IMG/VR virus record: IMGVR_UViG_3300024520_000003
Location: 1 to 64,000 of that record
Length of the DNA: 64,000 nucleotides
Direction: 5' to 3' (one strand)
From: a virus
Position 1 is the stretch's first letter. Every line of letters begins with the position of its first letter. Of this stretch, positions 34,968-52,871 are shown piece by piece. The translations under genes were made by a program, and so were the position numbers. The notes beneath the pieces were generated by a model. That model was not told the DNA's origin. It was given only the letters and a program-made list of their open reading frames with translations, and did no database searches.

Positions 34968-36491
34968 TTAGAATGAAACGTTATCGATGATTCCGCATTT
35001 TGTCGGGACCTTCACATGAAGCGAACCAAAAAGCATAAGCAAGAACGGAATAGAAGTCGTTGCCTGGGCTAATGGACGCCGGAGAAAATCTAATAGCTGT
35101 GCCCAATACATTACACCTGGGTCCATCTGTAACAGATAGGCTTGACCAGTCGAAGGACGATGCAAGTTCTCATCCACGATAACAGTCGCAGCAGCAACGG
35201 TCGGGTTTCGGGGAAACTGCCACATGTACGTTGCAGAGTCACCATCGGTATTCCCAACAGCAGTTCGATAGACACGGTAGTAGCGAATTCCACCGGCACC
35301 TGAGATAGGTTGAGCGGCGTCACCCATGGTAAATGTCACTTTCTGACCAGCGAGAACCGTGATGGTTGTCTCGTTGACACCAGTAAGGACTTTGACCGGG
35401 GCAGTAATTCCCTTATCACCAACACCAACGAAACGATATCGGTAACCACCGGCATCGGCTGCGCCGAATTTGCTAGTTCCAGATGCAGCTTGAGCTACGT
35501 TTGCAATTGGGAGCGTGAAGGTACCGGGATCACCGAACGGATCGGTGTTTTGATCTGCACGATTGGTTGACAAAGGAGCTTGCTCGATTGAAACCATTCC
35601 ACCCGGACCAGCGATTGAAAGTCCCTCTGACCCGAATACCAACTGCGTGGAGTTGGAAGGGGACATTTGGAAACGACCAAAGCTTGTCGCGATGTTCACG
35701 AGCTTCGCGTAGACGCGAGGATCGAGCATAATCGTGTTCACATAACCAAAGTTTGGTGCAGCGGCTACGTCATAAAGCTTGTTGATCAAGTCTTGAGGAG
35801 TAAGCTCGGCACCATCAAGGTTCAAGTAGTTAGAACCGTTTGCGGCGATTGTGTGAGCACCTGTTGCGCCATCGTAAGTCGGTTGAGCGACTTGCTGATA
35901 AAGACCGTCAAACTGAAGACCTTCACCACCGGCACCTTCTACACCCATGAGTGAAGAACCGAGGAACAGAGCGCGCTCCAACTTACCCATGAGGGCTTTG
36001 GTGCCATCAATAGTCTGTTGAGCAAGACCCTGACGACTAACACCACCAGAGTATCCCATGATTCCCGCCATTGTGGCGACATCGGTAATTTCTCTCTGTT
36101 CGGCAAGGTACTTCACCTTGACAATTTTACGAGTATAGGTGCCGTCAGAATTAGTACCGTTCGCGCCTTCTGCAATGAAGGGGTCCAGGTCCATATTTCC
36201 GTATGCACTGACAACCGTGCTTTCATGCAGAGGGCTAGTTACGTTGACTTTGGTGAGTTTCTTCCAAAGCTTCACCGCCATCTCGCTATAGGTAGCAGTA
36301 TCAAGCGTGCTTTGAATGCTCTGTGGAACCAACGGAGCGAAACTACCACTACCAGCCTGACCTTGAGTCGGGTAACCAGCGGATGCTTTAGCCATCGGTG
36401 CGCCACTTGCTTGAAGTGCCTTGTTTAGATCTTGAAGTTCGTGCATCGAGACTGATTGTCCAGCCAGTGCACTGAGGGATTGCAAATTCAT
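34968..36491 (-). CDS. Major capsid protein, HK97 fold with inserted domain
   Basis: A 507-residue protein downstream of protease and scaffold genes, with a strong AGGAG site. Residues 1-45 probably are a propeptide. The stretch SEMAVKLWKKLTKVNVTSPL and the region IVKVKYLAEQREITDVATMA match the N-arm and E-loop/P-domain of large-phage capsid proteins. Residues about 330-440 (RYRFVGVGDKGITAPVKVL ... IRYYRVYRT) look like an inserted Ig/FN3-like domain facing outward. The fold ends with TSIPFLLMLFGSLHVKVPTK, a typical closing strand. A peptide near residue 40-60 is shared with the protease. Confidence 0.8.
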   Translation of the reverse strand: MNLQSLSALAGQSVSMHELQDLNKALQASGAPMAKASAGYPTQGQAGSGSFAPLVPQSIQSTLDTATYSEMAVKLWKKLTKVNVTSPLHESTVVSAYGNMDLDPFIAEGANGTNSDGTYTRKIVKVKYLAEQREITDVATMAGIMGYSGGVSRQGLAQQTIDGTKALMGKLERALFLGSSLMGVEGAGGEGLQFDGLYQQVAQPTYDGATGAHTIAANGSNYLNLDGAELTPQDLINKLYDVAAAPNFGYVNTIMLDPRVYAKLVNIATSFGRFQMSPSNSTQLVFGSEGLSIAGPGGMVSIEQAPLSTNRADQNTDPFGDPGTFTLPIANVAQAASGTSKFGAADAGGYRYRFVGVGDKGITAPVKVLTGVNETTITVLAGQKVTFTMGDAAQPISGAGGIRYYRVYRTAVGNTDGDSATYMWQFPRNPTVAAATVIVDENLHRPSTGQAYLLQMDPGVMYWAQLLDFLRRPLAQATTSIPFLLMLFGSLHVKVPTKCGIIDNVSF

Positions 36492-36518: not shown

Positions 36519-37382
36519 TTAGTTAAGAACAAGTTTTGCCGATTCAGCAACTTCCGTTGCATCCGCGCCACTCTCGAGCATGGCAACAGCCATAGACAGT
36601 TCCGCTGCGCGATTGGCATCAGTACCAGCACGCAACTCCTCGTGAGCTTTCGCAATAACGTCGTGAGCAGAGAAACCACTCTTTTTCACAACAGAATCTT
36701 GAGGACTCTCGATGACTTGTAAATCGCCAGCGTCGATAATTGACCGTGGCGGAACAGGTTGACCGATTGCTTTCAAAAGAGCATCGATCTTTTCGTTGAG
36801 ATGAGAAATGACAGCAGCGTTTTCACGAGTTGTCGCGGATAGGCTTTTCACAACGTCTGTGACGGCCATATAACCCTTGGCAAGAGTCTCACTTTGGTTC
36901 CGAACATCGTGAACAATGTTGTCGGCACCTTTTGAGATAATTGCCACGAGGTCGTAATCCTCTTCACCTTTCATAATATCAAAGTCGTCGTCATCGTGGC
37001 CTTTGCCATAACGTGACATCTCGGAGTTGAACGCACGATCTGACTCGCTGTTAGCCTCTGCCTCTCGGGACTCCTCGGGCTGATTGGGCGCTCGACCGCT
37101 TGCGTCTGTACCTGCTTTCATTTTGCCCTTCTCTCCCTTGTCGAGGTTTTCTTCTTCTTCATCATCATCGTCTTTCTCGTCGTCTTTTTCCTCTTCGGCT
37201 TTTACAATAACCTCTGGGAAAACCTCTTTCACTGCTGCTGTTGCAGCCTTGAGGATGGCGTCGGGGCCAGTTTCACCAGCCAACTCACCTTTTGAGATTT
37301 TTGACTCTACAAGAGTGTCAATTTCTTCAGCATCGAGACCCTGTTGCGAGAGTCGCGCCCGATATTGATCTGCACTGTCCAT
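36519..37382 (-). CDS. Capsid scaffolding protein
   Basis: The ATG at 37382 follows GGGAGGA, and longer in-frame starts overlap the protease gene. The 287-residue product is acidic, with a long Asp/Glu/Lys run (EEEKDDEKDDDDEEEENLD) and a helical C-terminal half with heptad pattern. It lies between protease and capsid genes. These are the hallmarks of a scaffold core that is digested by the prohead protease during maturation. Confidence 0.7.
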   Translation of the reverse strand: MDSADQYRARLSQQGLDAEEIDTLVESKISKGELAGETGPDAILKAATAAVKEVFPEVIVKAEEEKDDEKDDDDEEEENLDKGEKGKMKAGTDASGRAPNQPEESREAEANSESDRAFNSEMSRYGKGHDDDDFDIMKGEEDYDLVAIISKGADNIVHDVRNQSETLAKGYMAVTDVVKSLSATTRENAAVISHLNEKIDALLKAIGQPVPPRSIIDAGDLQVIESPQDSVVKKSGFSAHDVIAKAHEELRAGTDANRAAELSMAVAMLESGADATEVAESAKLVLN

Positions 37383-37384
37383 CT

Positions 37385-38158
37385 TTAGTTCCTCCCGCGC
37401 AAGCGGTTCAAAATTCCACGGACGATGTTTTCGCCCTGAGTCCAAGTCAGCATTGGTGATTTCTTCAATAATGCACTTGTCATCATGTCGATCTCACCAT
37501 TCACTGAATAAGTTTCAGAAGCGAGAGCTTCAACACGACGTTGAGCTTCTTTCTGAATCTCGTCTTCTTTTTTGTCCCTGTCCTTACCACCATCAAGTGA
37601 CTGTGGCACTACTGGAGCAAACGGAGCAGAGTATCCCATTGCTTGAGCCGGATAACCCGCCATGGCAGATCTAAAAAACATAGAAGCCATCACAGGGTCA
37701 AACGTTGCAAGCGGGTTCTTGGGGTTGGCGCTAATGGCAACAGAATGGACCTTGGCCTCTTCTATCTTGTTTCCATTGCGACGAACGGCACGGCCTTCAA
37801 TACTGAAGCCAAGTTTTGACTTGGAGTTGGCCTTGTTCAGTGTTCGTGCTTTCTCGAATATTTGCTTACCAAGTGCGTCTGTTAGAAACAGATCTGCCTC
37901 AATCTCAGTCGCACTGTGACCATTGAGTGATGACTTACTGAATGAAATTGGCTCGCCAACGATATTCATCACTCCACACGGATGCTCAAGGGTAATCCAC
38001 TTGGCATCACTAAAATCTAAACCCTTTTGAATGATAATCTCATTATCGGCATCCAGAGCTTCAGACGAAGCTATTCCTTTGATTCGACCGCGACCAGTTG
38101 TGTCGCCATCACCTTTCTCGATGATGTCAAAGGGTGCCCACAGGGTTACTAGTTCCAT
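37385..38158 (-). CDS. Prohead protease (HK97 U35-like)
   Basis: A 257-residue protein. GRGRIKGIASSEALDADNEI, the histidine in TLEHPCG, LGFSIEGRAV and the serine in VHSVAISANPKNP align with the His/Ser catalytic strands of phage prohead proteases. The C-terminal third is linker-like and contains AGYPAQ ... FAPVVPQS, repeated in the capsid protein. It probably cleaves scaffold, capsid propeptides and possibly the header peptides of the virion-packaged proteins encoded to the right. Confidence 0.85.
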   Translation of the reverse strand: MELVTLWAPFDIIEKGDGDTTGRGRIKGIASSEALDADNEIIIQKGLDFSDAKWITLEHPCGVMNIVGEPISFSKSSLNGHSATEIEADLFLTDALGKQIFEKARTLNKANSKSKLGFSIEGRAVRRNGNKIEEAKVHSVAISANPKNPLATFDPVMASMFFRSAMAGYPAQAMGYSAPFAPVVPQSLDGGKDRDKKEDEIQKEAQRRVEALASETYSVNGEIDMMTSALLKKSPMLTWTQGENIVRGILNRLRGRN

Positions 38159-38446: not shown

Positions 38447-41400
38447 CTATCCCAGGGGATGACCTCCGAGTGCTGCTAGTGCTGCTTGAGCGCGCTTTTT
38501 TAGCGTTCTAAGGCTTCTTTGGAAGTGTCCTCTGTAACGAGGATCACCCCCACCGGCACCTTCACTCCAAACTTCTCCAGCGTTGTCTATAGCGCCACTG
38601 TTCGGGTCGAGTGCGTATTCAAGAGCCTCTTTGGTCCATTTCCCAGACTGGAAACTATCAATAAACTCCTCCCTGTTTTCTTGGCGTTGTGCGAAGTCAG
38701 GGTTGTCTGGGTCATACCCGTAGGTATCAGCCTCCAATGCCTGGAACTCGTCCCGAAGTCGAGGTGTTAGCTTTATTTCAACCGCTGGACCTCTATTGGT
38801 TTGATGGATCTTTGGGCCTTTGATGTGTCTTTCTGCTTTGGGTGATTTGTCTTTCTTTGCTCTTGCTGATGCAATTAGTTCTGAAAATGGACCGTCGCCT
38901 AACCCACTCGATCTTGACTCAGGACTGTGTTCATCAGGGCGACCCGTGACAGCCATCGCGAGACTTGCCTCAGACCAATCGGATATAGCTGGAACCTCAG
39001 TCTTTTCAGTTCCCATTAGTTTTGCAATCTTACGCATATCAGCGGGGTCTCGAATTAACCACGTTCCGTTCTTTTTATTGTAGGTTCCAATCTGCGCTCT
39101 CTTGTTCTTGGTTTTCTTTCCACCGTAGTAGAGTTGATTAAGGACTTCGTGGGCGTGAGATCCATCCTCGGCTCCACGAAGAACTAGACCCTTGCCAGTT
39201 CTTGAGACGCCGATACCAACCGTACCGACCTTAGCTATTGCCTGTCGTGCGCGGAAATCCCGTGTCTTGTTACGACTTGTCGCCGTCTTTAGCCCAACAG
39301 CCTCTAAAACGTCCTCACCTCGTTGAAATCCGTAGACAGACTCTCTGAAGTAGTCCTTAGCAACCTCAACCTCACTCTTAGACGTAGCAGTTTCCAGCGC
39401 AGAAAAGGCATCTTCAACTTCATCGTTTTTACTCTCGTCGATAGAATATGAGTGCTCCCACGACAGAAGCTCGCCTGTGGTTTTATTCGCTCCCGGGTTT
39501 CCTTCAACAAGCGCACCCATGTTGGCGAGTTTCTTACCAACGAGTTCACCAAGGTGAGTTTCAAACTTATCGTCACCTTGCATCCAAATCATGTCCACGT
39601 CGGACTGAGATCCCATTCGGTAACTCCGTCCAGCGACCTGTTGAAAGTCTGCGCCGCTCAGTGGAAGGGTTAGGTTGATCTGGGTCCTGGGTCGACCACC
39701 TTTTCGGTCATGGTAGCTAAGACCCGTTCCACCCTTGGCCATTGTCCCAACGATTACACGCTTATCCCCTCGTTGATAGGCGGCTGTCTCTTCCTTGGCA
39801 TCCGCTCCTCCGTGCGCTTGACCAACGTACTCTTTCGCCTCTTCGTAGGTAAGCTCACGTCCAGCGAGGTGTGATCCCAACTTAATGGTCATATATTTCA
39901 GTGTGTCGCGCTCAGGCATTGAGGCTGCAATAGCATCTATCTGGTCTGCGTATTCTAGTGCAGACTCAGGGAGGGTTTGACTTACATGAACACGATGCCT
40001 GATTGAATCAGCTATGCCCGTGATTCGTTTGTTTGTGTGTTTAGTGTAAGCAGTGAAAAGAAGAACCTGAGCGTTGGGATCTCCATTAAGTTTATCTATG
40101 GCCATGCTAACGGCCTGTTCTGCCTTTGCGGCTTCCCATGCCTGTCGTTTCCACCCGAAAATACGACCACCCGTTGTCAGTGGGTTCAGTCCCGCCTCTA
40201 TTGCCAACCTTTTTACCTTGTCGGCGGCGCTAAACGCCTCTGAATACACTGGGTCCATTTCTGATGCTTTCACTTTGCCAAAGTTAACATTCAGATCCAC
40301 GACTTCACCTTGACGGTTTGTCATGGCTGCGTAGTTAGGAACTCGCTTGGCACCACCACCGCTTGCGTGAAGAAGTGCTGCTACAGCCACAGACGGGAGT
40401 GGAGATCTGGGGTTTTTGACATCGAATGGAATAGCACCCTGCTCCATACCTCGCCGTGACACACCGGCACCCAATTTCTCTGCCCATTCCACGAACTCAC
40501 CACCTGTCTTGAACCATCCCATTTTGCGAAGATAGTGAAGGTCTTTGATATTCGTGTAGGGTGTCGCGCTCATGTAGAGCACCTTTTCAGCTTGATCCTG
40601 TAGTTTGACTGCTGCTTGTGCTTCCTGACCTGTCGGGTTCGCCATCTTGTGAGCTTCATCGAAAACTATGGTGTCGAACTTACCCTCGTATTCCGGCTTC
40701 AATAAGATAACGAAAGTTCCATCAGGCTGTTCTTCCCTTGTGAAAAGTTCATTATAGGACGCAACGAAGTAACCATCACCGCCCTCCCGAGGGTGCTTGA
40801 AATTAAGATTGTATAAATCTCCAGTCTCAGCCCATTGGGATTTGAGACCCTTTCCACCCGCAGTGGGAACCACGACAAGATTCCTCTTCCCACCCCGGGC
40901 AATCATCGCACCCATGGCTGTCAGAGTTTTTCCTAGCCCAGCTTCATCCTGAAGAACGAACCCGTCACGCTCGTCCCATGACTGGAGAATTCGGGAGATT
41001 CCCTCTTCCTGATGCCTGAAAAGGCTGTAATATCCTTCCTCCTCATTGGCATTTGGGAAGTTGGTTACATCGTTTGGAACCTCTTTTGTAATTCTCGGAG
41101 CAACGTCCTCATGTAGCATTATCGAGATATTGCTAGGCGGTGTTGTGGCGTTGTAGTCCTTGACGTCTAAATCACCGTCGTAGAAAACCCCATACCGTTT
41201 TGCCTCGTCAAACCACGTCGCCTTTGTCTTTGCCGTTCCTGTGGTAACTGCCTCAGCGACCTTTCGCTTTAGAAACTCTTTATGAGATGCGATGTCTGCC
41301 GCGTGGTGATCCTGAAGGAGTTTGGTGAATTTCTTCTTAGTCATCCACCTCTCTCGCTCAGTTGCTGAGTTCTTGACCCGAACTCGGTCACCTTCCATTT

Positions 41401-41698
41401 CAATAACTTCAAGGTGAGTTTCGACCTTCTCACCGTTCTTTTCTGTAGATATGGCGTACTCAGACCCGACGTGCATGTGGGCTTCAGACCCAATATACTC
41501 ACCGTGCTGTGCTACACGACTGGAGTATTTCCACGGGTACCAGTAACGCCACTGACCCCCGAACTTCTTTCTGTATCCACCAGACTTAGATCCAGCGATG
41601 GCCTCGAAACCCGATGGAGGTTTGTCGGTCGTTTTGTACTTCATTTTGTACTTTGCGCCAGACCGCGCCTTCATAAGAAGCTCTGAAAATGAATACAT
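38447..41698 (-). CDS. SNF2-type helicase, likely virion-packaged (DarB/strawberry-notch-like)
   Basis: A 1083-residue superfamily 2 ATPase. Walker A is EAGLGKT (252-258), the DEAH box is at 347-350, motif III is SATP (377-380) and motifs V/VI contain GGTGLS and QVAGRSYRMGSQ (687-698). It begins with SFSELLMKARSG, similar to the headers of the 1717-aa protein, and a Gly/aromatic stretch follows (KFGGQWRYWYPW). Genes of this type beside portal and MuF are known in P1-like DarB and other 'polyvalent proteins' that enter the cell with phage DNA and block restriction. No methyltransferase domain is visible. The C-terminal 280 residues are basic and unassigned. Confidence 0.8.
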   Translation of the reverse strand: MYSFSELLMKARSGAKYKMKYKTTDKPPSGFEAIAGSKSGGYRKKFGGQWRYWYPWKYSSRVAQHGEYIGSEAHMHVGSEYAISTEKNGEKVETHLEVIEMEGDRVRVKNSATERERWMTKKKFTKLLQDHHAADIASHKEFLKRKVAEAVTTGTAKTKATWFDEAKRYGVFYDGDLDVKDYNATTPPSNISIMLHEDVAPRITKEVPNDVTNFPNANEEEGYYSLFRHQEEGISRILQSWDERDGFVLQDEAGLGKTLTAMGAMIARGGKRNLVVVPTAGGKGLKSQWAETGDLYNLNFKHPREGGDGYFVASYNELFTREEQPDGTFVILLKPEYEGKFDTIVFDEAHKMANPTGQEAQAAVKLQDQAEKVLYMSATPYTNIKDLHYLRKMGWFKTGGEFVEWAEKLGAGVSRRGMEQGAIPFDVKNPRSPLPSVAVAALLHASGGGAKRVPNYAAMTNRQGEVVDLNVNFGKVKASEMDPVYSEAFSAADKVKRLAIEAGLNPLTTGGRIFGWKRQAWEAAKAEQAVSMAIDKLNGDPNAQVLLFTAYTKHTNKRITGIADSIRHRVHVSQTLPESALEYADQIDAIAASMPERDTLKYMTIKLGSHLAGRELTYEEAKEYVGQAHGGADAKEETAAYQRGDKRVIVGTMAKGGTGLSYHDRKGGRPRTQINLTLPLSGADFQQVAGRSYRMGSQSDVDMIWMQGDDKFETHLGELVGKKLANMGALVEGNPGANKTTGELLSWEHSYSIDESKNDEVEDAFSALETATSKSEVEVAKDYFRESVYGFQRGEDVLEAVGLKTATSRNKTRDFRARQAIAKVGTVGIGVSRTGKGLVLRGAEDGSHAHEVLNQLYYGGKKTKNKRAQIGTYNKKNGTWLIRDPADMRKIAKLMGTEKTEVPAISDWSEASLAMAVTGRPDEHSPESRSSGLGDGPFSELIASARAKKDKSPKAERHIKGPKIHQTNRGPAVEIKLTPRLRDEFQALEADTYGYDPDNPDFAQRQENREEFIDSFQSGKWTKEALEYALDPNSGAIDNAGEVWSEGAGGGDPRYRGHFQRSLRTLKKRAQAALAALGGHPLG

Positions 41699-41710: not shown

Positions 41711-41872
41711 CTATTTGATGCCCTTAAGATTTGGAAGAGTTGGCTCTAGTCCTAAATCTTTTTGCTTTTTCATATCTCTCAACATTTTGTCGATCTTAGC
41801 TCGATCTGACTCCTTAAGGTGTTCATATCCACTTATCTTAAGGTGAACGGGTTGTTTATCACGATCTGTCAT
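41711..41872 (-). CDS. Small basic protein, 53 aa
   Basis: An ATG overlapping the MuF stop (ATGA) opens a 53-codon frame ending 12 bp before the helicase start. The product MTDRDKQPVHLKISGYEHLK and on is a charged helix (KIDKMLRDMKKQKDLG). The tight packing supports a real gene. The function is unknown. Confidence 0.6.
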   Translation of the reverse strand: MTDRDKQPVHLKISGYEHLKESDRAKIDKMLRDMKKQKDLGLEPTLPNLKGIK

Positions 41873-42795
41873 GCTGCAATCTCCTCATCTTCTATAGGAA
41901 CGAAATCCCAGTTCTCATCCATAGTAAACCCAGGAGGGATGACCTGTACACCACATCGGCAATTTGGATGCACTGGCCAGATGGTTGGTAACCAATCCTG
42001 ACGTTTTCTTCCAGCGTTTGTGTCATTGGCAACTAGATCAGCGACGTTGAAGACAATTGGGGTATCCCCTTGGAGGAAGACCCTGCGGCAGTCAATACAC
42101 GCTGTTTGATCTGGAGTTCTTGCGACTCTGGCATCTTCGCCGTAGATCTCCAACGATTCAATCACCGTTGCTTCGTTATAGACGCCCTGAAGTTCAGTTC
42201 GTGCGATCCGATGCCAGTTTCTGTTCCAATTTCCACTTGCTGTGCCCAAGTCCGTTGCAAGTTGCTCCGATGTTCGACCCCTGACAACGGCTTCGGCTAG
42301 TTCATCTGGGAGGACATCTAGATCCCTTTTTTGGGCCTCTTCCTCAAAATCTATATCGGATTGCTCGGATTCCCAAACGTCACCAACTCGCTGAGACACA
42401 TCGTCTTCAATGAACTCACCCAGGTCTTTGATTAGTTCACCAGAGCGATCTAAAGCGCGTTCATACGATATGGACTCCCTTCTTGTCAGCCATGGTGGTG
42501 GGACAGTTGGGTCGTTGATATCGCTAATGCTAATTCCCTTATCTTTTGCTCTGGCTATAATCTCGTCGTTTATTTCAGAAGTCCATCGGGTTAGGTCCCA
42601 TTGGCGCATGACATCGAGTTGGTCTGGAGTGGCGTTTGCCATCTTGTTTCCCATAAGGATCGCAAAAAGAAACGAATCAATCGGGTGGATAGTTCCAGGA
42701 ACACTCATACCACCAACGGTCTGCCAGATATTTGTGTTGTATTCCCGTATAGCAAGTTCAATGCTTGCTTGGGCGGCGGTTAGAAGGCTATTCAC
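41869..42795 (-). CDS. MuF-like head morphogenesis protein
   Basis: A 308-residue protein starting at GTG that overlaps the upstream stop (GTGA). The C-terminal half contains RIARTELQGVYNEAT, then CIDCRRVF and HPNCRCGVQVIPPG. This is the conserved arginine/cysteine/HPNCRC pattern of the Mu gpF (MuF) domain. MuF proteins sit inside proheads in a few copies and often accompany ejected effectors. That fits the adjoining polyvalent-type genes. The N-terminal half is helical. Confidence 0.8.
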   Translation of the reverse strand: MNSLLTAAQASIELAIREYNTNIWQTVGGMSVPGTIHPIDSFLFAILMGNKMANATPDQLDVMRQWDLTRWTSEINDEIIARAKDKGISISDINDPTVPPPWLTRRESISYERALDRSGELIKDLGEFIEDDVSQRVGDVWESEQSDIDFEEEAQKRDLDVLPDELAEAVVRGRTSEQLATDLGTASGNWNRNWHRIARTELQGVYNEATVIESLEIYGEDARVARTPDQTACIDCRRVFLQGDTPIVFNVADLVANDTNAGRKRQDWLPTIWPVHPNCRCGVQVIPPGFTMDENWDFVPIEDEEIAA

Positions 42796-43037
42796 TCCCC
42801 GTTGACCTTCTCAAGCACTACCTTAGTCAGTCCCTTCATGTGTTCAGACCATCGCGCTTCCATTAGGTCCGATAGTTGACGGAGTGCTTTCACTTCGCCG
42901 TCCCCAGGTAAGTCTGGAAGGACAGATCTAACCGTTTTCCTGGCACCTCCGATGGCTTTCTCAAGTCGGTTGCTTATATCGTGTGGACAACCATCGCTGA
43001 TTTCACCCGGATAGGACTCGCAGATGATTAGTTTCAT
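42792..43037 (-). CDS. Hypothetical protein, 81 aa
   Basis: A small leftward gene embedded by 4-bp overlaps between MuF and the internal-protein gene. The product is a mixed protein with two cysteines and an amphipathic helix (NRLEKAIGGARKTVRSVL). The family is not recognised. Confidence 0.65.
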   Translation of the reverse strand: MKLIICESYPGEISDGCPHDISNRLEKAIGGARKTVRSVLPDLPGDGEVKALRQLSDLMEARWSEHMKGLTKVVLEKVNGE

Positions 43038-44131
43038 TCGCTGTCCTTTTTCTTAGTGCCTTTGTCATGTGGATTTTTATATCCAACTGGTTCTTTTTTC
43101 TTAGTGCCTAGTCCTCGACGTTTATACTCGTCCTGAAGAAGTCTTCGTTGTTTCTTCTCTGCTTCCTTATCTAACCCGGGCCTGTTTTTGATTCTGTCTA
43201 GATTGGCTTGAATCTGACCATCACTCATTTTTCGGACACGGTCTTTTGAGGCAAAGTCCTTTTTCTCATTTCTTATCTTTTCGCGAATGTCATCTATTTC
43301 AGCCTTAGCCTTCTTTCTATCCGAATCGGTCTTTGCTCCATAAAGTGCACCAAGGGGAGCGGATAACATTGCGCCAGATCCAGGAGCGAGTATATCAAGG
43401 ATTCTCGAAACCTGACTCGCGAGTCCGTTTATGAGTGCCGCGTTTAGTTCCTTGGTCTGTTGTTTGCGTTTAGCGTTCTCGGCTTGATCTTCTAAGCTAG
43501 GTGCATCCTGAGTCCCATCTTCCTTGGGTTCCTCTTTCTTTTCTTCTTTTCCACCACCCTCATCATCGTCATATATGTAGGTGTAGTTCCCTGGAGTCCC
43601 TTCTCGCGTTCCTGGACCGTCATAGGGATCTCCCGTTGCTTTGAATATCCTTGCGCCCAGAACTGAGAACTCGAACGTGCCCTTTTCTATTATGTTCACA
43701 GCCTCGTAGCCCATCTGCATGACCGCATCGACGGCCTCTTGGGCGCTTCTGTGCTGTGTGTCTGGCACGTTTTGGCCCGGGTTGGGCACTGCTTGGTCAA
43801 AGAACGAAGCTTGCCACATTCCGGGCTTTTTTGAGCTTCTATGAACGAACACCCACTGACTGCCTTGCCCTGACAGTTTTATACCGCCGATCTTATTCTC
43901 ATCACCCACTTTGAAAGTCCGTTTGTTTGATTGAGTGTATTTGTAGTCATAATTCCCAGGAGATCCGGTCCTGGAACCCGTTCCAGAGTATGCGGTGCTC
44001 TTTTCAACCATTCGGTTATAGATGCCCATAATATAAGCGTAATTCTCACCCTTTCCAGCCCTGGATGCTAGATCACGGGCTTTCTTCCATCGTTTCTCGT
44101 CTTTTTTGGTTTTTACTACGCTAGTTGGCAT
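43034..44131 (-). CDS. Probable internal virion protein with repeated Gly-Tyr headers, 365 aa
   Basis: The N-terminus (KKDEKRWKKARDLASRAGKG, then NYAYIMGIYNRMVEKS) matches a helical element common in phage internal proteins encoded beside portals. Two copies of a Gly/Tyr motif follow, RTGSPGNYDYKY and REGTPGNYTYIY, related to those in the 1717-aa protein. A beta domain lies between them (QWVFVHRSSKKPGMWQAS). The C-terminal half is a charged helical rod. It is probably packed in the capsid with the neighbouring products. Confidence 0.6.
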   Translation of the reverse strand: MPTSVVKTKKDEKRWKKARDLASRAGKGENYAYIMGIYNRMVEKSTAYSGTGSRTGSPGNYDYKYTQSNKRTFKVGDENKIGGIKLSGQGSQWVFVHRSSKKPGMWQASFFDQAVPNPGQNVPDTQHRSAQEAVDAVMQMGYEAVNIIEKGTFEFSVLGARIFKATGDPYDGPGTREGTPGNYTYIYDDDEGGGKEEKKEEPKEDGTQDAPSLEDQAENAKRKQQTKELNAALINGLASQVSRILDILAPGSGAMLSAPLGALYGAKTDSDRKKAKAEIDDIREKIRNEKKDFASKDRVRKMSDGQIQANLDRIKNRPGLDKEAEKKQRRLLQDEYKRRGLGTKKKEPVGYKNPHDKGTKKKDSE

Positions 44132-44143
44132 TTTTATCTTCCC

Positions 44144-47100
44144 TTAGTCCTCTTCTACTTCTTCTTCCACTGCAAATACGAGATTCTGAAGAGCTTCTTT
44201 TGACGGAGTGTGACCCGTTACCTGCTTGAAAGCATCCTTTAGGTCTTTAGAGTCAAGAGAACTGAACGATATTCCAGCGTAGGCTATCTGATTCATAACT
44301 GCTTCGGCTTGTTCTGCGTGATAATCCCAATCACCGTCTTTAGCTTTACGACTGACTGATTTATCTGAACGGTATTTTGATTCAGTTTTAGACGCCTTTC
44401 CTTTGGTGGGTTTCTTTGACAACCAGTGGAGACTCTCTAGAAGATCTCCCGCTAAATCGTCACGCCCCACGCCGATCTTTAATCGAGGAATCAACTCCTT
44501 TATAATGAGTTTCTCTACGTCAGTGTCCCGATGTTTCTTTGCTAGTGCGGCGCTTACTTTGAAAAGAAACTTGGATGTTACTAGTTCCTGCGGGGTTCCA
44601 AAATCCTCTTCGCTTAACTCTTCATAGTTACCACCAAGATAGCCCATGTAGTTGGTATGGTCCTCAACGTTAGAGAAAGTAGGTCTAAAGTCCTTCGGGA
44701 TTAACTCGGGTTGTTTCTTTTCGGCCTTTCCTTTAGGTGATTCCAATACAGATGATAGGTCTGAAATTGCTAATGATTTCAGTGCGTTACTGATACCTTC
44801 TTCAACTCTTGGATCTTTCGGGTCAAGTCCTTCTTTCTCATACTTCGCGATGAACTCGTCCTTGAAGTCACCTATCTCGTTGGCCCATCCGCGAGCGATT
44901 CCTTCATCCACTTTCTTTGGATCTGGTTTTCCACCACCGTTCCAGGCAAGAGCAAATCTCAACCCATCGACAAACTGCTTATCATTGACATCAAAGTCAC
45001 TGTCCTCGTGATGGATATTCTCCTTCAGGAAGTCTTCCAGTTCCTGAGTGAACGCCCTGTCAATTCCCATAGCACTTGCGCCTCTAGCCGAGGATGGGTC
45101 GGTGTCGTCTTCTTCATAAAGCGCTTTCTTGGATTGTTTCTTTCCGCCTTTGGAGTCTTTGTACTTATAGTCCCAGCCCTTTCCTGTCTTTTTCTTAGTT
45201 CTTGAGATGTACTTCTTGACCCGGGCTTTTGATAGTAAATCCGTCATGCTCATGGTGGATTTCTCGACACCTTTGAGTTCTTTATAGAGATTTCTAATTC
45301 CCAGATTTATGTACTCATGCTCGTCAATCTCAAACTCTGGTGCTGTGTCTGGAAGCCTAAAAGATGGGACCTGGAATGCGTTGACGTGGAAAACGAAATC
45401 GTCCTCACTCTCTCTGTCGGCACGGTCCTGTAACCATTCAGACTTTTTGGCCACGTTTGGATTTTTTAGGTCTATTAGACCTTTAACCCTTTCCAGTTCC
45501 TTCTTATCAAGATTTCCTATTACTTGCTTTCGGTATTCTGCGTGGGCTTTGAGATCTTTTTTATTCGCAATTTTCGATAACTTGTTCGATCTTTCAATTG
45601 CTTTACTTTGGATCTCCGAAGAGAACTTGTTTCCATAGTTCTCTAGAACCTTTGCAGCGAAACCGGCTGCGGTCCTTGCGTCTTCATGTGCATCTTCAAG
45701 TTTGAAGTTTTCGGATTTGCGTGCGGCTGACATCTTATTGCTATGATCTACCGCTCTTTCCCTGAAATCCCACCGATCCAAAGTATTTGAACTTGAACCG
45801 CTCTCAGTCTCATGTGCGCGGCGATGAGCATCACCAGCATCACGGTGCTCTTTGACTTTTCCCATCCAATGTTTTTTCTCGTGAGGACGCTCCTCAACCA
45901 TATTTCCCGCAATCGCTGCTAGATCATAATTGCGGTCCATTTCTTCTTTGTGGTCTACTTTTTCTTTTTTACTACCTGTCTTTGCGTCGTCCTTGTATTT
46001 GTAGTCCCAACCCTTACCGCTTTTCTTTTTGGTCCTGGATATATATTTCTTGGTTCTGGCTTTGGTTATCAGGTCACCGAGATCTGTGAAGGACATGGAC
46101 TTTTTGGTCCTTGAGCTTCGCCCTTCGACTGCACCACCGGTCTTAGCGTGAACCGTCATTCCACCTGAAGTTGCAGTTACCCCAACGTGAGCAGGTTTTC
46201 CATGACCTGCGGCACCTAGTATCTCAGCATCACTCATTTTCTCTGCTTTTGTTGAGTGTTCACGAACAGCCGCCAGGAATTTCTTCTGTCGGTGTTTTCT
46301 TCTGGGTGAGGATAAGTTCCTGGGGTTTATCGAGATGTCCATGTGTTGGAAGTCTTCGAATCCCATGTCGTTCGCAATGTTATCCAAGTCCAATGTGCCG
46401 ATATCTAACTTGTGTGCGAATCCAGACCAGTTGGAGTTCTTTGGGCCTTGATTACCCCTTCGTTCCTCATGCCGGGAACTAGTTTTTTCCGACCTCATGG
46501 ACCTTCCACGACCTTCAGATTCTTTCCATGGGATTGTGTGTTGGGCATCAGCCCACATACCGCCGCGGGGACCCCTGTAAGGACCACCCTTGGATAGACT
46601 ATCGCTCTTATTCGTGAGCGCCTTCATTAGTATATTTTTCAGGGTTAGGGATTTTTGCGTTTCCTTTACCTTGTAACGATAAAGTGAGTTTTTCCCCGGC
46701 TCACGAGTCTTTGTATTGTAATTTTCATAGTCGAGGTAGCTTTTCTTGCCCTCCGTTTCCTTGGCATGGTGAGCCATGACGGCATGCGCATGGTCCCTGC
46801 TTTTTAGTCCATCGACACTACTGCTTTTCCCGTTGTGGCTGAACCTCACTGAATGTGTGCCGTCACGATCCTTGTTGATGCTGTAGTGTGACCTACCGTG
46901 TCCCCCTTCACCGCGCAATGTCGGGTGGTTGTGCTCAGTGTCACCGCTGTCTTTGTATTTGTGTCTCTGGGTGGGGACTGGGTGACTATGGTCCTCGTAG
47001 ATTGGCTTTCCACTAGCGGTGTGGCCGATGATCTTGCCGCCTCGGGAGCCTTCACCACCTTTTTTTACGGGAACCCCTCCAGATCTCTTGCTTGATGGCT

Positions 47101-49297
47101 TCTCTCCCATTTTCCTTCCTCCGTGAAGTTCGTTATGGTGACTGGATGCTGCCGCGTAGTGAGCGTCCCTGAGTTCCCTAGCGTTATCTCGATCTGCACC
47201 GTCTTTCATTGTTTTCTGTGCTTTGTGGTGTTTATTGCTTTCGTTCATGTGAATATCTATAAAATCAGCGTGATCTTCCTTGGAATGTCCTTCAAGTTTT
47301 TCAAACGACGACTGGGAGTGAACTTTTCCATTCTTTGGTGCGTAGATAGGGTTACCGCTGGCAGTGTGACCGACGACATTACCGCCTTTTGAACCTTCAC
47401 CGCTCTTTGCTTTGATGATTAGATTGCCTAGATCTGTGAATGACATGGCCTCTCCATTTCCAAGTGATTTGCCTATTTGCTTCATTGGGGAACTTCCGTG
47501 GTATTTTGAGTACCGTTGTTGAACCAGTGTAAGCAACTCACGTTGCTGTTTCGGGGACGCGATCCGTGTCATGGCCGACTCGACCGATATTCGTTTCAGG
47601 ATAATGTCTTCTGCCAATTGTTCCAAGAGCGGTATTGCCTTGGTGAGTTCTCCACTCATTTCCAGGAACCACTCGGGTAGATCGAACTGCTCTAGGGACT
47701 CGCTGTCGTCGTCCTTGGCTGGCTCTGCATTACCTGCTCCCTTGGCTGGCTTGGCTAGTGCGGCCTCTAGGATGCTCTGTGTCGTGGCCTTAGCAATAAC
47801 CTCGATTTGGTTATGCCATGAGTCGAATATAGACGGAGGGATGTAGGATTTCTTCGTCACTGCTGGAGTGTTATTCAGCGCATCTGAAACGAAAATCGCA
47901 CACTCGTTAACGATCTTAACCACCTCTTTTTTCGTCTTAGGTGGTGGGGAGTCTCTTTGTGCAAGGAACTCGGCTGCTTTTTCAGCGGCTACGTTGGTTC
48001 GGAAGTCCTTGGGTTTGAAACCGCTAAGACCTACCTTGCCCATCATTAGAGATAGTCCTTCACCGGATAGAGTTCTTCGCCATAGCGGTGCGTCCCCTCG
48101 ACCTTTTTTGCTTTGGGCGATGTACTTTGCTAGGTCTTTGTCTTTGAGTGACGAGGTGTTGTGTTTCTTGGATTTACCCGTGAATGAAAAACTAACTTCA
48201 CCCGTCTTTGTGTTGGCCTTCACGTCACCCGTATGTAACGTCATCACGCCCTTCGTTCCATGTTTCCTGACGTGTGCCTGTCCACCGTGTCCTGCCCTTA
48301 GACCTGTTTGCGATATGATTAGCAGTGCAGCAGCGGTATCCCTGGCCGTTTGAGGTTGGGATGAATCGTTCATAAACTTGCGAAGTTTGCGTTGAGCGGC
48401 TGGGACTTTGTCGTTTAGTTGGCGCACTCGGTTCCACTTGTTTGCAGCGTTTCGGTCCATGAACGTGCTGGTGTACGCGTGACGCTTGTCGCCATTTGGT
48501 GCTCGCCATGTCATAACAGCACCAGAATGAATGTCTTCGGCAGTTGCACCATGGTCGATTAGATCTGTCACGCCGACAGGAGGTATCTTGTCCAGACCTT
48601 CGTTTTTATACTTTTTTACAAGTTTATCGCGTTCTTTTTTTGTGATTCCTTTAGGTTTTTCCTTGTCAGGGATTGCGCGTCTTTCCCTTCCTGACCCTTC
48701 ATCATATTTGTATTCGTAATGACCTTTAACACCAGTTCGCTTGCCCTTACCTGAATAGGTATCGCCTTTCGCAATGGACTTAGAAACCGAGGCAGGTGGT
48801 TTACGCTCTTCGTCCTTAGTCCACGGCCCATAATTTTTGTTCTGGAAACTGTTAACCATCGCGGCATTGGTTGTGTACTTCTTCACTCCGCTTGGCTTGA
48901 ATGTGGCGTAGAACTCGTCCTTGGGCCACCCTGTTTTCATATACTCTTCTTTTCCGAGTCCGTGTTCGTGATACCAAACACCTTGCTCAGTCTGCCAGTC
49001 CATCACAGTACCATCAGCGCGTTCAACCCATCCATGAGGACCGCTCAGCCCTTTGATTTTTCCGTGAACTACTCGGTCGTCATCGTGTTCACCAGCGGCA
49101 CCAGCGGCATCGACATCCTTTCTCATGTTAGCGTATGGAAAGCACATTCCACATGCGGCAGTCTTTTTCTCCCGCTTAGAGTCCTCGGTGTATTTGTATT
49201 TGTAATGACCTTTGACGCCAGTGCGTTTACCTTTGCCAGAGTAGCTATCCCCTCGGGACTTCAGGATAATTTCCCCTAACTCAGTAAACGTCTTCAT
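44144..49297 (-). CDS. 1717-aa modular polyvalent-type protein with topoisomerase IB domain
   Basis: The ATG at 49297 follows GAGGTGGAG and overlaps the portal stop (TGATG). Header peptides recur: MKTFTELGEIILKSR (1), MSFTDLGNLIIKAK (about 618), MSFTDLGDLITKAR (about 1068) and MSMTDLLSKAR (about 1349), each followed by a basic Gly/Tyr motif such as RTGVKGHYKYKY or KSGKGWDYKYKD. Module 1 has a C52/H88/D100 arrangement that may be papain-like. Residues about 215-500 are a topoisomerase IB domain: R334 in TGLRAG, K375 in TGKSKKH, R433 in KDFRT and Y485 in TPAVTKKSYIPP. Module 2 repeats GHTASGxPIY twice and has GPRGGMWADAQHTIPW. Modules 3 and 4 are helical and unassigned. It is probably packaged and possibly cleaved by the prohead protease. 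Confidence 0.8.
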   Translation of the reverse strand: MKTFTELGEIILKSRGDSYSGKGKRTGVKGHYKYKYTEDSKREKKTAACGMCFPYANMRKDVDAAGAAGEHDDDRVVHGKIKGLSGPHGWVERADGTVMDWQTEQGVWYHEHGLGKEEYMKTGWPKDEFYATFKPSGVKKYTTNAAMVNSFQNKNYGPWTKDEERKPPASVSKSIAKGDTYSGKGKRTGVKGHYEYKYDEGSGRERRAIPDKEKPKGITKKERDKLVKKYKNEGLDKIPPVGVTDLIDHGATAEDIHSGAVMTWRAPNGDKRHAYTSTFMDRNAANKWNRVRQLNDKVPAAQRKLRKFMNDSSQPQTARDTAAALLIISQTGLRAGHGGQAHVRKHGTKGVMTLHTGDVKANTKTGEVSFSFTGKSKKHNTSSLKDKDLAKYIAQSKKGRGDAPLWRRTLSGEGLSLMMGKVGLSGFKPKDFRTNVAAEKAAEFLAQRDSPPPKTKKEVVKIVNECAIFVSDALNNTPAVTKKSYIPPSIFDSWHNQIEVIAKATTQSILEAALAKPAKGAGNAEPAKDDDSESLEQFDLPEWFLEMSGELTKAIPLLEQLAEDIILKRISVESAMTRIASPKQQRELLTLVQQRYSKYHGSSPMKQIGKSLGNGEAMSFTDLGNLIIKAKSGEGSKGGNVVGHTASGNPIYAPKNGKVHSQSSFEKLEGHSKEDHADFIDIHMNESNKHHKAQKTMKDGADRDNARELRDAHYAAASSHHNELHGGRKMGEKPSSKRSGGVPVKKGGEGSRGGKIIGHTASGKPIYEDHSHPVPTQRHKYKDSGDTEHNHPTLRGEGGHGRSHYSINKDRDGTHSVRFSHNGKSSSVDGLKSRDHAHAVMAHHAKETEGKKSYLDYENYNTKTREPGKNSLYRYKVKETQKSLTLKNILMKALTNKSDSLSKGGPYRGPRGGMWADAQHTIPWKESEGRGRSMRSEKTSSRHEERRGNQGPKNSNWSGFAHKLDIGTLDLDNIANDMGFEDFQHMDISINPRNLSSPRRKHRQKKFLAAVREHSTKAEKMSDAEILGAAGHGKPAHVGVTATSGGMTVHAKTGGAVEGRSSRTKKSMSFTDLGDLITKARTKKYISRTKKKSGKGWDYKYKDDAKTGSKKEKVDHKEEMDRNYDLAAIAGNMVEERPHEKKHWMGKVKEHRDAGDAHRRAHETESGSSSNTLDRWDFRERAVDHSNKMSAARKSENFKLEDAHEDARTAAGFAAKVLENYGNKFSSEIQSKAIERSNKLSKIANKKDLKAHAEYRKQVIGNLDKKELERVKGLIDLKNPNVAKKSEWLQDRADRESEDDFVFHVNAFQVPSFRLPDTAPEFEIDEHEYINLGIRNLYKELKGVEKSTMSMTDLLSKARVKKYISRTKKKTGKGWDYKYKDSKGGKKQSKKALYEEDDTDPSSARGASAMGIDRAFTQELEDFLKENIHHEDSDFDVNDKQFVDGLRFALAWNGGGKPDPKKVDEGIARGWANEIGDFKDEFIAKYEKEGLDPKDPRVEEGISNALKSLAISDLSSVLESPKGKAEKKQPELIPKDFRPTFSNVEDHTNYMGYLGGNYEELSEEDFGTPQELVTSKFLFKVSAALAKKHRDTDVEKLIIKELIPRLKIGVGRDDLAGDLLESLHWLSKKPTKGKASKTESKYRSDKSVSRKAKDGDWDYHAEQAEAVMNQIAYAGISFSSLDSKDLKDAFKQVTGHTPSKEALQNLVFAVEEEVEED

Positions 49298-50943
49298 CAC
49301 TCCACCTCGATGATATAGGCTTTGACTCCTGGTTCTGCGTCAACCAGGGCCAGTTTTCCGCCTTTCGATACTCGATTTGGATCGACCTTCCACTCCACAC
49401 GACCGCTTCGGATTCCTTCCTCTGTGGACTTGGCAATGTCCTCCAGAAGACCATCTAGGTCATATTGGTAGTCATCATCACCTTCGTCGCCACCTTGACC
49501 ATCACCACCGCCTTCAGATTCCTGTTGTTCTTCAGCCCTCATTTGGTTCCATGTGTTGACGTAGGTTGGGTCCAATATGACCTCACCCAGTGGAGTGTCT
49601 AGCTTGGGTAGATCGTGTTCGGCTCTGACTTCGTTGATTGTCCTGTAGCCTTTGAGCACTTGGAGGTCTAGTTTGACTCGCTCAGACTCGCTCATGGCGT
49701 CTTGGCCGACTATTTCAAAGCAAAAGTCTTCGTCCAGGGACTTGACGACGTAGGTGTTCATCCAACTTTCAAGTGACCGGAGCAGGGGTCTTAGTCCACG
49801 TTCCTTGGATGCTATAATCCGTTGCTCTGGACCGCTGGAACTCAGTGAGGAAGTCTGACCCTCATTTCCGAACGTGAATCCAATCTCAGCAGGGTCCATG
49901 GTGTAGACCGCGCAGGTGACTTTCAGTAGCCAGTTGATCCAATTGCTGTATTCCATTTCTTTGTTAGATTGGGAAAGCGATACGGCGCTTAGATCTTCAT
50001 TACCCTCAGGAGATAGCTGGAGGATTGGCACTCTTTTGGCGTTTCTTGGACCCGTCATCATAGCCATAACGTGTCTTTTGAATGCGTCAAACACCTGTGC
50101 GGTCATTGTGCTTTTCAATAAAAGAATAGTCTGTGCGTGGATTCCGTTTGTGAAGTTGACGGAATTGTATGTTTGAGCGTTGAGAAGGTCAGTGATTACC
50201 CGCATCAACTCCTCGAGTTCTGGGTATCCGTACCCGGATGTCTGAATCCACGTTCTTGGACGACGGATACACCAAGCCATATCCCCAGGACTGTAGGTAT
50301 TGACGATCTTATCGTCGACGGTTTGGATATAGGCCACTTTCTCGGCGTCTGGATACCATCTGCCTGTCTTACCGTCCTTCTTGCTCCCCTTTGGGCGTGC
50401 TTTGCGTATTGTGGAAGCGTCTACAGGGACGTATCCGACCAAGTCCCTGCCCTTATTTCCCAGTCCACGGGTTCTTAAGATCTCAAAGTTGGCCTGATCG
50501 TATGTTAGTGAGTCACGCATAAGCATACGAACGAAGGGTTCGAAACCGCCTGGACCGTAGACACCACCCGCATCCTCGATAACGGCCATGATTTCCTTGG
50601 CGCGTTTCTTGGATGCTTTAGTGGCTTTCTGGTCTGAGTCCTTAAGAACGATCCGATATCCGGACGAGTATGGGGACTTCTGAGGAACTGCGAACTCAGC
50701 GACCTGTTGGATTCGGGTCTGGATAATAGCTCCAATGACCGGAACCCGGGAGATATTCATCAACGTCCAGTAATCAACACCAACTGTTCCTGGGTGAACG
50801 TCACTAACTACCTCATCGAGGGTTTGCATGGAATACATGCCACCCGTGGGAGCCATGTTTAAGCTCTGTGGCTCTGGTAGCCGAGTCTCTTCGTTCCTGT
50901 CAGCAACAGGACCCGCTTTAAGTAGGTCGGCTAACCAGCCCAT
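49297..50943 (-). CDS. Portal protein
   Basis: A 548-residue protein with the start at 50943 behind AAGGAG. The region DYWTLMNISRVPVIGAIIQT followed by FVRMLMRDSLTYDQANFEIL and DMAWCIRRPRTWIQTSGYGY is typical of large-phage portals. The C-terminus has acidic Gly-rich linkers (GGGDGQGGDEGDDD). Twelve copies form the DNA channel at the capsid vertex. It overlaps the 1717-aa gene by 3 bp. The N-terminal MGWLADLLKAG resembles the header peptides of the internal proteins. Confidence 0.85.
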   Translation of the reverse strand: MGWLADLLKAGPVADRNEETRLPEPQSLNMAPTGGMYSMQTLDEVVSDVHPGTVGVDYWTLMNISRVPVIGAIIQTRIQQVAEFAVPQKSPYSSGYRIVLKDSDQKATKASKKRAKEIMAVIEDAGGVYGPGGFEPFVRMLMRDSLTYDQANFEILRTRGLGNKGRDLVGYVPVDASTIRKARPKGSKKDGKTGRWYPDAEKVAYIQTVDDKIVNTYSPGDMAWCIRRPRTWIQTSGYGYPELEELMRVITDLLNAQTYNSVNFTNGIHAQTILLLKSTMTAQVFDAFKRHVMAMMTGPRNAKRVPILQLSPEGNEDLSAVSLSQSNKEMEYSNWINWLLKVTCAVYTMDPAEIGFTFGNEGQTSSLSSSGPEQRIIASKERGLRPLLRSLESWMNTYVVKSLDEDFCFEIVGQDAMSESERVKLDLQVLKGYRTINEVRAEHDLPKLDTPLGEVILDPTYVNTWNQMRAEEQQESEGGGDGQGGDEGDDDYQYDLDGLLEDIAKSTEEGIRSGRVEWKVDPNRVSKGGKLALVDAEPGVKAYIIEVE

Positions 50944-50947
50944 GAGA

Positions 50948-51164
50948 TCACTCCTTCGATTTCGGCGTACTTTCGTCCACGAACTCACCGCTATTGCTAG
51001 TCAGTTCGGTCGTTGTTAGTGACTCGACTACCTTGTCGATTCCTTCATCGGCCAGTTCAAGCAGTTTAGATACCCACTCTTCGGCTTCCTCGGCGAGTTT
51101 TTCGCGAGCAAGAACCGCTAGAGTTTCCACGAAGCTTGTTGCTACTTTGCGAACGTCATCCATT
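50948..51164 (-). CDS. Hypothetical helical protein, 71 aa
   Basis: The ATG at 51164 overlaps the spanin-like stop (TAATG). The protein is a long acidic helix (REKLAEEAEEWVSKLLELAD) ending in a Ser/Thr tail. No family is evident. The longer in-frame extension to 51199 lies within the upstream gene and is not favoured. Confidence 0.55.
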
Positions 51165-51971: not shown

Positions 51972-52871
51972 TTACTTGTATGGTTCGCCCTTCTCGCCAC
52001 CCCATTTCTCAGGAATAGTTTTTCCTGGGTATCTGGAATGGTTCAAAGTCCCTGGGAATGCTTCCAGCAGACCCTCTTCTATCAACGGCAACGCAACACC
52101 TCTCCATATCAGTTCTCCCGGATCGGACGTTTTCATCCCATAGGATTGCCTGTGTGCTGCTATGTATTTGATTGTTCCGCCCAGTTGCTTGGAGCGGTTT
52201 ATAGCATGGATCACCGCTTGGCGACAGGCTTCAAGTTGACGCTCTGTGGGTGTCATGGGTTTTCTATTGGGTCGGCTTTTTGGTTTCCAGAAGTACCTTG
52301 AGTTGGTTCCGATTCCGCTGAAGTACCCTTCGCACTCTATCCCAACAGACCGTGAGTTGAATGCCTGCGCGTGTGGCATCCTCCACACTGGATCGTGCAT
52401 CCAATACGCAGCGGCGTTGTCTCCGCATGTCACGACATAGTGAATCCCTAGCGATTTCCATCTACTCCATCCCTGTGAGTCGGAGTCTTTGACGGCCATT
52501 TGGTGAAGTACTACCGTGTCGACCGACCTTAGACGGTTCTTTCGTTTTCTTCGCTTTGCATCTGCTTCAGATCTAACGTCATGGATTAGATTTAGTCCGT
52601 TAGATGACGAGCAGTGTTTTTCGACCTCTATGTTGGCTAGACTTTGAATCCATGCAATAGAGTACCCAGGCAGTTCTTCATCCCAGTGGAACTCCCGGTC
52701 ACTGTCCTCGTAGACAGCCTCTACCGCTTCCATGGTTTCGCGTCCAAATATCCCGTCAGCGCCCCAACGGGGAAGAGCGTATCCCAGCAGAATTAGGTTG
52801 CCTTGGAGCGACAGGACCGCATCTCCGCGATCCCCCATTTTGATTGGATCTGGATTAGATCTCGCCACCAT
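51972..52871 (-). CDS. Endolysin: peptidoglycan-binding plus amidase_2 domain
   Basis: A 299-residue protein. Residues 10-60 (KMGDRGDAVLSLQGNLILLG ... DGIFGRETMEAV) are a peptidoglycan-binding domain. From about 115 comes an N-acetylmuramoyl-L-alanine amidase fold: VVLHQM (zinc His), the substrate strand SVGIECEGYF, and AAHRQSYGMKTSDPGE with the second His and the Asp of the site. No signal peptide is present, so a holin is needed, and one is encoded downstream. The cassette order is endolysin, coiled-coil membrane protein, holin, lipoprotein. Confidence 0.85.
   Translation of the reverse strand: MVARSNPDPIKMGDRGDAVLSLQGNLILLGYALPRWGADGIFGRETMEAVEAVYEDSDREFHWDEELPGYSIAWIQSLANIEVEKHCSSSNGLNLIHDVRSEADAKRRKRKNRLRSVDTVVLHQMAVKDSDSQGWSRWKSLGIHYVVTCGDNAAAYWMHDPVWRMPHAQAFNSRSVGIECEGYFSGIGTNSRYFWKPKSRPNRKPMTPTERQLEACRQAVIHAINRSKQLGGTIKYIAAHRQSYGMKTSDPGELIWRGVALPLIEEGLLEAFPGTLNHSRYPGKTIPEKWGGEKGEPYK

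Follow-up and report, generated by a model that had tools for sequence, protein, structure and literature searches.

A long phage protein, probably a polyprotein of the head, with modules marked off by predicted prohead-protease sites and short tags

The virus record IMGVR_UViG_3300024520_000003 of IMG/VR is 70744 bp long, comes from a bacterial virus, and carries directly after its portal gene a minus-strand gene for a protein of 1718 aa (44144..49300). This protein is probably a polyvalent protein of the phage head, a polyprotein that the prohead protease takes apart. Coordinates refer to the window, the stretch of 64,000 nucleotides that was analysed (positions 1 to 64,000 of the record). 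In the mechanism that we favour, short headers of the type F-[ST]-x-L... would serve as capsid-loading propeptides, and both these headers and simpler linkers would end in the protease consensus (L/I/V/M/F)-x-K↓(A/G/S), where the arrow marks the cut. The intact chain would enter the prohead along with the scaffold, the portal protein and the protease, which would then destroy the scaffold, trim the capsid protein and cut the polyprotein at every boundary. Cutting would free mostly basic modules, a 36-kDa type IB topoisomerase among them, each with a conserved N-terminal tag, and the freed modules would stay beside the DNA in the head and leave with it on ejection.

The open reading frame (ORF) is open from a GTG at 49300 down to the stop at 44144. 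Residues are counted from this GTG; the ATG at 49297, with the Shine–Dalgarno (SD) sequence GAGGTGGAG, is likely to be the start instead. An initial annotation, made from the sequence alone, had reported four recurring headers in this frame, and they are indeed present at residues 2-16, 619-632, 1069-1082 and 1350-1360. A six-frame scan of the whole record (open frames >80 aa) with the expression [FM][ST][DE]L.{0,7}[KA][AS][RK], drawn up after the headers had been seen, returned the known four and a fifth, MYSFSELLMKAR, at the N-terminus of the helicase from this head operon. The polyprotein headers end in ILK↓S, IIK↓A, ITK↓A and LSK↓A, and the helicase header ends in LMK↓A. We propose that such ends, (L/I/V)-x-K↓(A/G/S), are the prohead-protease site of the phage. 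Three more boundaries that had been overlooked, K178↓G, K747↓G and K904↓G, show the same cut consensus and a tag, without the F[ST]xL header. The basic Gly/Tyr motif said to stand behind each header is found after headers 1, 3 and 4, and header 2 is followed by GHTASGNPIY instead. The likeness drawn to the peptides of T4 internal proteins is borne out by comparing MKTYQEFIAE↓A of IPII/IPIII with MKTFTELGEIILK↓S of header 1; a cut site as in T4 is supported as to the type of consensus, with an inferred P1 of Lys and not Glu. Such signals also occur on the helicase, on a 365-aa neighbour and probably on the portal protein.

Within the polyprotein, a site lies at most 16 aa upstream of every tag (7/7), against a mean of 0.75 in shuffled sequences and none of 20000 shuffles reaching 7; with any residue other than Lys at P1, the number of tags with an upstream site falls to zero. 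The association extends to relatives. The tag pattern GPRGGKWAD drew 105 stretches from IMG/VR, in which 102 of 121 nonredundant tag instances have the consensus no more than 10 residues upstream, no other P1 residue giving a comparable count, and P3 is Leu in 81 of 111 aligned tag-linked sites. A further count, over 97 nonredundant related proteins, puts a site no more than 12 aa upstream of 121 out of 133 GPRGGKW tags, 12.6 times the rate elsewhere, and the Lys mostly stands 6-7 residues ahead of the tag core. In a second class of tags, basic-GxWxYxY, a site accompanies 31 of 43.

The consensus was also counted, as [LIVMF]xK[AGS] and with the expectation taken from composition, throughout the record. 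The scaffold-position protein has far more sites than expected (11 vs 1.4), as do the protease itself (6 vs 1.4) and the portal protein (7 vs 1.8), and the remaining genes of the record have no excess over expectation. Seven scaffold-position proteins were compared, namely those of the window, of five related phage records and of SPO1, all identified by position except that of SPO1, which is annotated. Together they hold 62 of 110 lysines in consensus context, with 7.0 expected; for other P1 residues, observed and expected counts are 14 and 12.3 (E), 5 and 3.9 (R), 4 and 4.9 (Q), and 4 and 9.7 (D). SPO1 serves as a control from culture: its protease is related to that of the window, and its scaffold alone has 11 sites vs 1.3 expected. 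In HK97, gp5 is cut at FNK103↓S104: residue 103 is Lys and the mature chain in the PDB entry 1ohg begins at 104. The consensus, its position before the tags and its specificity for head assembly are thus backed by sequence statistics, and we place under the same heading the relatives and fold class of the protease and the separate header-bearing genes of related phages. In the open-access literature we found the Lys consensus of HK97 and SPO1 in no paper; this specificity may already be familiar to those who work on the two phages.

The proposed processing enzyme is the prohead protease encoded at 37385..38158 (minus strand). It matches phrog_1028 (3.5e-28) and is related to Herelleviridae proteases (SPO1 gp3.2, E 1e-16), and its residues H59 and S119 are invariant across 27 sequences. 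Herpesvirus assemblins top the list of solved structures that resemble its predicted structure (mean pLDDT 80; prob 0.98-1.00). Family match, conserved His and Ser, and assemblin-like fold all agree with a protease of the HK97-type/assemblin-fold group. On the basis of the substrate statistics and of the HK97 site, we infer that it cuts after (L/I/V)-x-K. All but one of eight records with tags encode a homologue, the exception being a 4.2-kb fragment.

Several observations weigh against a processed polyprotein. The Lys-rich chain has 13 sites in total vs 10.1 expected, no excess over chance, and it is their placement alone that stands out. Sites inside Pfam domains are not significantly depleted (odds ratio 0.64, p 0.2), so some are probably uncut or due to chance, and the shortness of the pattern makes individual sites uncertain. 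The consensus was framed after the headers had been seen; scaffolds, SPO1 and HK97 were tested later. For the protease, the structural resemblance to assemblins is modest (TM about 0.3; best E 1.8e-3), the profile alignment to HK97 gp4 (hhalign) is weak, and there is no Pfam or NCBIfam match. The GHTxSG class of tags has a site in 2 of 6 cases and is too small to be read alone. Finally, since headers also stand in mid-chain and, in the related phage L013, at the C-terminus, they may double as docking motifs.

In its full form, docking would mean that headers and tags bind the shell, scaffold or portal and that the chain works uncut, or cut at the first header alone. We regard this as rather unlikely, even if it is the best of the alternatives. 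It would account for headers in mid-chain and at the C-terminus (FTNFSDLLKSIGRA in L013), for the header-like GPFSELIASARAK of the helicase, which lacks the cut consensus, and for the non-significant avoidance of domains by the sites. However, what the headers have in common with the boundaries that lack one is precisely the motif found in excess in scaffolds, proteases and capsid propeptides, and docking alone leaves unexplained why P3, P1 and P1' are fixed and P2 is free. Docking and cutting are in any case compatible.

The internal header methionines could instead be alternative starts, from which modules would arise as nested separate products and not by cleavage. The SD of Met619 is fair (duplex -6.4 kcal/mol, ranking second among the 36 internal Met codons) and Met is kept in 3/3 internal headers, but the SDs at Met1069 (-5.1) and Met1350 (-3.9) rank 9th and 11th of the 36, the internal headers of L013 and L110 have no Met in start position, Met is missing from the boundaries at 178, 747 and 904, and all such products would share one C-terminus. 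This makes nested starts very improbable; the fusion of former genes would explain why the internal methionines were retained. Slightly less credible still is tandem duplication in a fast-evolving polyvalent protein, with repeats of no special function and a cut-like pattern due to composition: the Lys-rich chain, its chance-level site total and the near-identical tags of modules F and G would suit it, but the same tag recurs in 132 instances <70% identical ahead of unrelated domains, the site–tag association is 12.6-fold, and the enrichment in scaffolds is independent of the polyprotein.

If the chain is a polyprotein cut by the prohead protease, its parts can be laid out as follows, all on the minus strand. 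Header 1, MKTFTELGEIILK (49259..49297), is a predicted propeptide with its cut at K14↓S15; at the sequence level it is, as in T4, an N-terminal peptide with a prohead-protease site. Module A (residues 15-178; 48767..49258) begins with the tag YSGKGKRTGVKGHYKYKY and continues into a Cys/His domain, with a weak match to phrog_10437 and a 28% relative in L057. Its pattern CGMC...GPHGWVE...DW is like that of a small Cys/His enzyme domain, and the module is possibly a papain-like or NlpC-type hydrolase. Module B (residues 179-504, 36 kDa; 47789..48766) carries a second YSGKGKRTG tag and a type IB topoisomerase (topo IB) domain, which matches the Deinococcus topo IB 2f4q over 230 residues (E 4.5e-14). 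Alignment to 2f4q puts candidate catalytic residues R335, K376, R434, N477 and Y486 in the expected places, the catalytic set of these enzymes being R, K, R, H/N and Y. Both homology and catalytic residues are those of a type IB topoisomerase, and cuts at 178 and 504 would leave it intact, with 326 aa.

Header 2, MSFTDLGNLIIK (47411..47446), has its predicted cut at K630↓A631 and includes Met619 with its fair SD. It precedes module C (residues 631-747; 47060..47410), composed of the tag VVGHTASGNPIY and a His-rich region, which resembles stretches in L021, L124 and L046. Module D (residues 748-904; 46589..47059) follows the predicted cut K747↓G748 with the tag IIGHTASGKPIY and finishes in tandem sites, LMK↓A at 893 and LSK↓G at 904. 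Module E (residues 905-1068; 46097..46588) follows K904↓G905 with GGPYRGPRGGMWADAQHTIPW, a tag of the widespread type. Header 3, MSFTDLGDLITK (46061..46096; predicted cut K1080↓A1081), leads into module F (residues 1081-1349; 45254..46060), with the tag KKYISRTKKKSGKGWDYKYKD and a charged region. Header 4, MSMTDLLSK (45227..45253; predicted cut K1358↓A1359, with VEK↓S 1347 just ahead), leads into module G (residues 1359-1718; 44147..45226), with the tag KKYISRTKKKTGKGWDYKYKD and an acidic C-terminal region. The predicted products are A 15-178 (18 kDa), B 179-504 (36 kDa, isoelectric point (pI) 10), short pieces from 505-611, C 631-747, D 748-893, E 905-1080, F 1081-1347 and G 1359-1718 (40 kDa), most of them with a pI of 9-10. 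Tandem cuts are predicted at 174/178, 611/630, 893/904 and 1347/1358 and would free short peptides.

When the whole protein was searched against Pfam, PHROGs, NCBIfam and PADLOC, no domain reached significance, and the 22-aa tag has zero matches in Pfam, PHROGs and the PDB. Short tag queries against cultured phages and plasmids returned nothing and a T4 control query worked; a low-complexity filter may mask Gly-rich tags, so their absence from these elements is not claimed. The idea that the GPRGG tag is a folded beta-hairpin was dropped after AlphaFold with 60 sequences gave a pLDDT of 60 and no confident structure.

Related phages arrange the same parts differently, in keeping with the earlier suggestion that the modules were once separate genes. 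In L149, three close genes begin with MFSGLLSSWQKG, MFSELLFSWRKA and MFSELLSSWRKG and share the start MFS[EG]LL.SW[RQ]K[GA]; a header-led gene in L155 starts with MSLFLDLFKG, and headers begin genes in L013 and L136 too. The portal relatives L149 and L155, with their separate header-led genes, were found independently of the tags. Proteins of L013 carry headers at the N-terminus, internally and at the extreme C-terminus. The topo IB module recurs in differently built genes of L012, L071 and L107: it is a gene of its own adjoining the portal gene in L012, where the start is lost at the contig end, and in L071 another type of tag stands directly ahead of it (LQKALFIGPQGGRWANAEHTIPY). From these varied arrangements we conclude that modules, headers and tags recombine. 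The domains of tag-bearing relatives include ddrB-ParB, InPase, RelA/SpoT, zeta, SAM-lyase, SNF2, LPD1 and LPD25.

Individual relatives illustrate this range. The L013 polyprotein that closes with the C-terminal header FTNFSDLLKSIGRA has 1772 aa (L013:15058-20376), with LPD25 and weak sliding-clamp and AAA-type matches. The tagged polyproteins at L140:1-9399 and L138:2639-6340 contain zeta toxin, S-adenosylmethionine lyase, pyrophosphatase, ddrB-ParB and RelA/SpoT domains, and that at L139:11813-19771 (2653 aa, three tags) has SNF2 helicase, ddrB-ParB and PAPS-reductase-like domains. The more distant portal relatives L017 and L018 have a different long protein before the portal, with few header-like signals.

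The gene order on the minus strand is portal, the 1718-aa ORF, a 365-aa ORF, an 81-aa ORF, Mu F-like head protein, helicase, prohead protease, scaffold-position protein and probable major capsid protein. Delivery of the polyprotein with the DNA is suggested by one feature, its position between the portal and Mu F-like genes. Actual cutting, packaging and ejection, like the functions of the modules, are what we infer from the patterns described above. The portal gene (49297..50988) has one of its seven sites at the N-terminus (LLK↓A). The 365-aa companion protein (43034..44131) contains two cut-site-plus-tag units, VEK↓STAYSGTGSRTGSPGNYDYKY and IFK↓ATGDPYDGPGTREGTPGNYTYIY. The Mu F-like gene lies at 41869..42795. 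The helicase (38447-41698, 1083 aa), of SNF2/strawberry-notch type by library matches, bears the N-terminal header MYSFSELLMK↓A (41669..41698), and its second header-like stretch, GPFSELIASARAK, lies near residue 936 and lacks the cut consensus. The scaffold-position protein is encoded at 36519..37445. Gene 34968-36491, to judge by where it lies and by its N-terminal pattern, probably encodes the major capsid protein. It has sites at K24 and K35 only, in a putative N-terminal propeptide (36387..36491). Upstream of the portal lies an endolysin-like gene (51972-52871; phrog_1493, 1.7e-12). At the nucleotide level, the one relative found for the polyprotein gene is a near-identical fragment (L006), and a scan of genome contigs for a host gave one weakly informative contig of a metagenome-assembled genome (MAG), from which no host was assigned.

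Polyvalent proteins form a known class, borne by phages as well as by conjugative elements (Iyer et al. 2017, PMC5512222). The initial annotation named this class; what is new is less the repeated header than the punctuation by cut site plus tag. The class comprises multidomain proteins of great length, predicted to travel with the DNA, and the polyprotein is likewise very long. Its tag-sharing relatives contain ddrB-ParB, InPase, RelA/SpoT, LPD1 and LPD25 and clearly qualify as polyvalent. The window protein has one identified enzyme domain (topo IB) and six modules without an assigned domain, and library searches found in it no ddrB-ParB, InPase, LPD or other domain named for the class; we describe it as working like a polyvalent protein because such domains occur in its relatives, not in itself. 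For processing, Iyer et al. propose embedded zincin metallopeptidases or C-terminal assemblin-like domains, and the passages on cleavage found there say nothing of tags or of recurrent cut sites in linkers, whereas the likely processor here is a separate prohead protease.

The cleavage grammar aliphatic-x-X↓small is common to other prohead proteases (T4, SPN3US), here with Lys. The T4 prohead protease recognizes aliphatic-x-Glu. Comparison of T4 sequences shows that IPI, IPII and IPIII also have a short N-terminal MKT[FY]xE[FL].. ending in aliphatic-x-X↓small; however, P1 is Glu in T4 (gp21 specificity) and Lys in all headers here, and T4 has one peptide per small protein where the polyprotein has many along one chain, with a tag after each. 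The role of the T4 peptide is general knowledge and is recounted in PMC9024508, in its account of Mullaney and Black. HK97 gp4 and SPO1 gp3.2 occupy the same gene position as the window protease, HK97 has Lys at P1 and a small P1', and the SPO1 scaffold has the same consensus, but the SPO1 head region has no annotated polyprotein substrate. In phage P1, DarA is packaged in the head and its N-terminus is cut by the prohead protease Pro (PMC12810830), and the N-terminal 30 residues of DarB direct a reporter to the capsid (PMC9024508). Both are packaged in the head, as the polyprotein would be, but each has one N-terminal signal, no repeated internal signals are reported, and the authors found no shared Dar consensus (PMC12810830, PMC9024508). 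In SPN3US, the prohead protease gp245 acts on several head proteins, cutting behind a short consensus, and gp53 has several sites; the consensus is AxE, and cuts remove propeptides, not separate enzymatic modules (PMC10052503). Each step taken singly has precedents, in DarA trimming, DarB targeting, the SPN3US ejection proteins and the T4 internal proteins.

A broader reading is more tentative. Uncultivated phages may use a portable cut-and-tag code, in which a protease site and an interchangeable short tag (GPFIGPRGGKWADxxHTIPW, KYxxR...GxWxYxY or GHTxSGxPIY) are placed before any effector domain, whether it has a gene of its own or stands in a string of several. Each domain would then enter the prohead, be released there by the capsid protease and keep its N-terminal tag as an address for retention or ejection. 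We give this reading somewhat less than an even chance; the address role of the tag is speculation. With similar reserve, the code could apply to a large set of uncultivated phages. Among the open-access papers searched, none was found to describe polyvalent proteins with a cut site plus tag repeated as internal punctuation. If the reading is true, phage dark matter would gain a reading frame: sequence would suffice to predict, for hundreds of giant phage proteins, where modules begin and end, which N-termini are mature and whether the protein resides in the virion, and the dismantling of polyvalent proteins that have no peptidase of their own would be explained. It would also supply a short, transferable signal by which proteins can be loaded into phage capsids, and would predict Lys-at-P1 specificity for a large group of proteases, the relatives of the SPO1 enzyme included.
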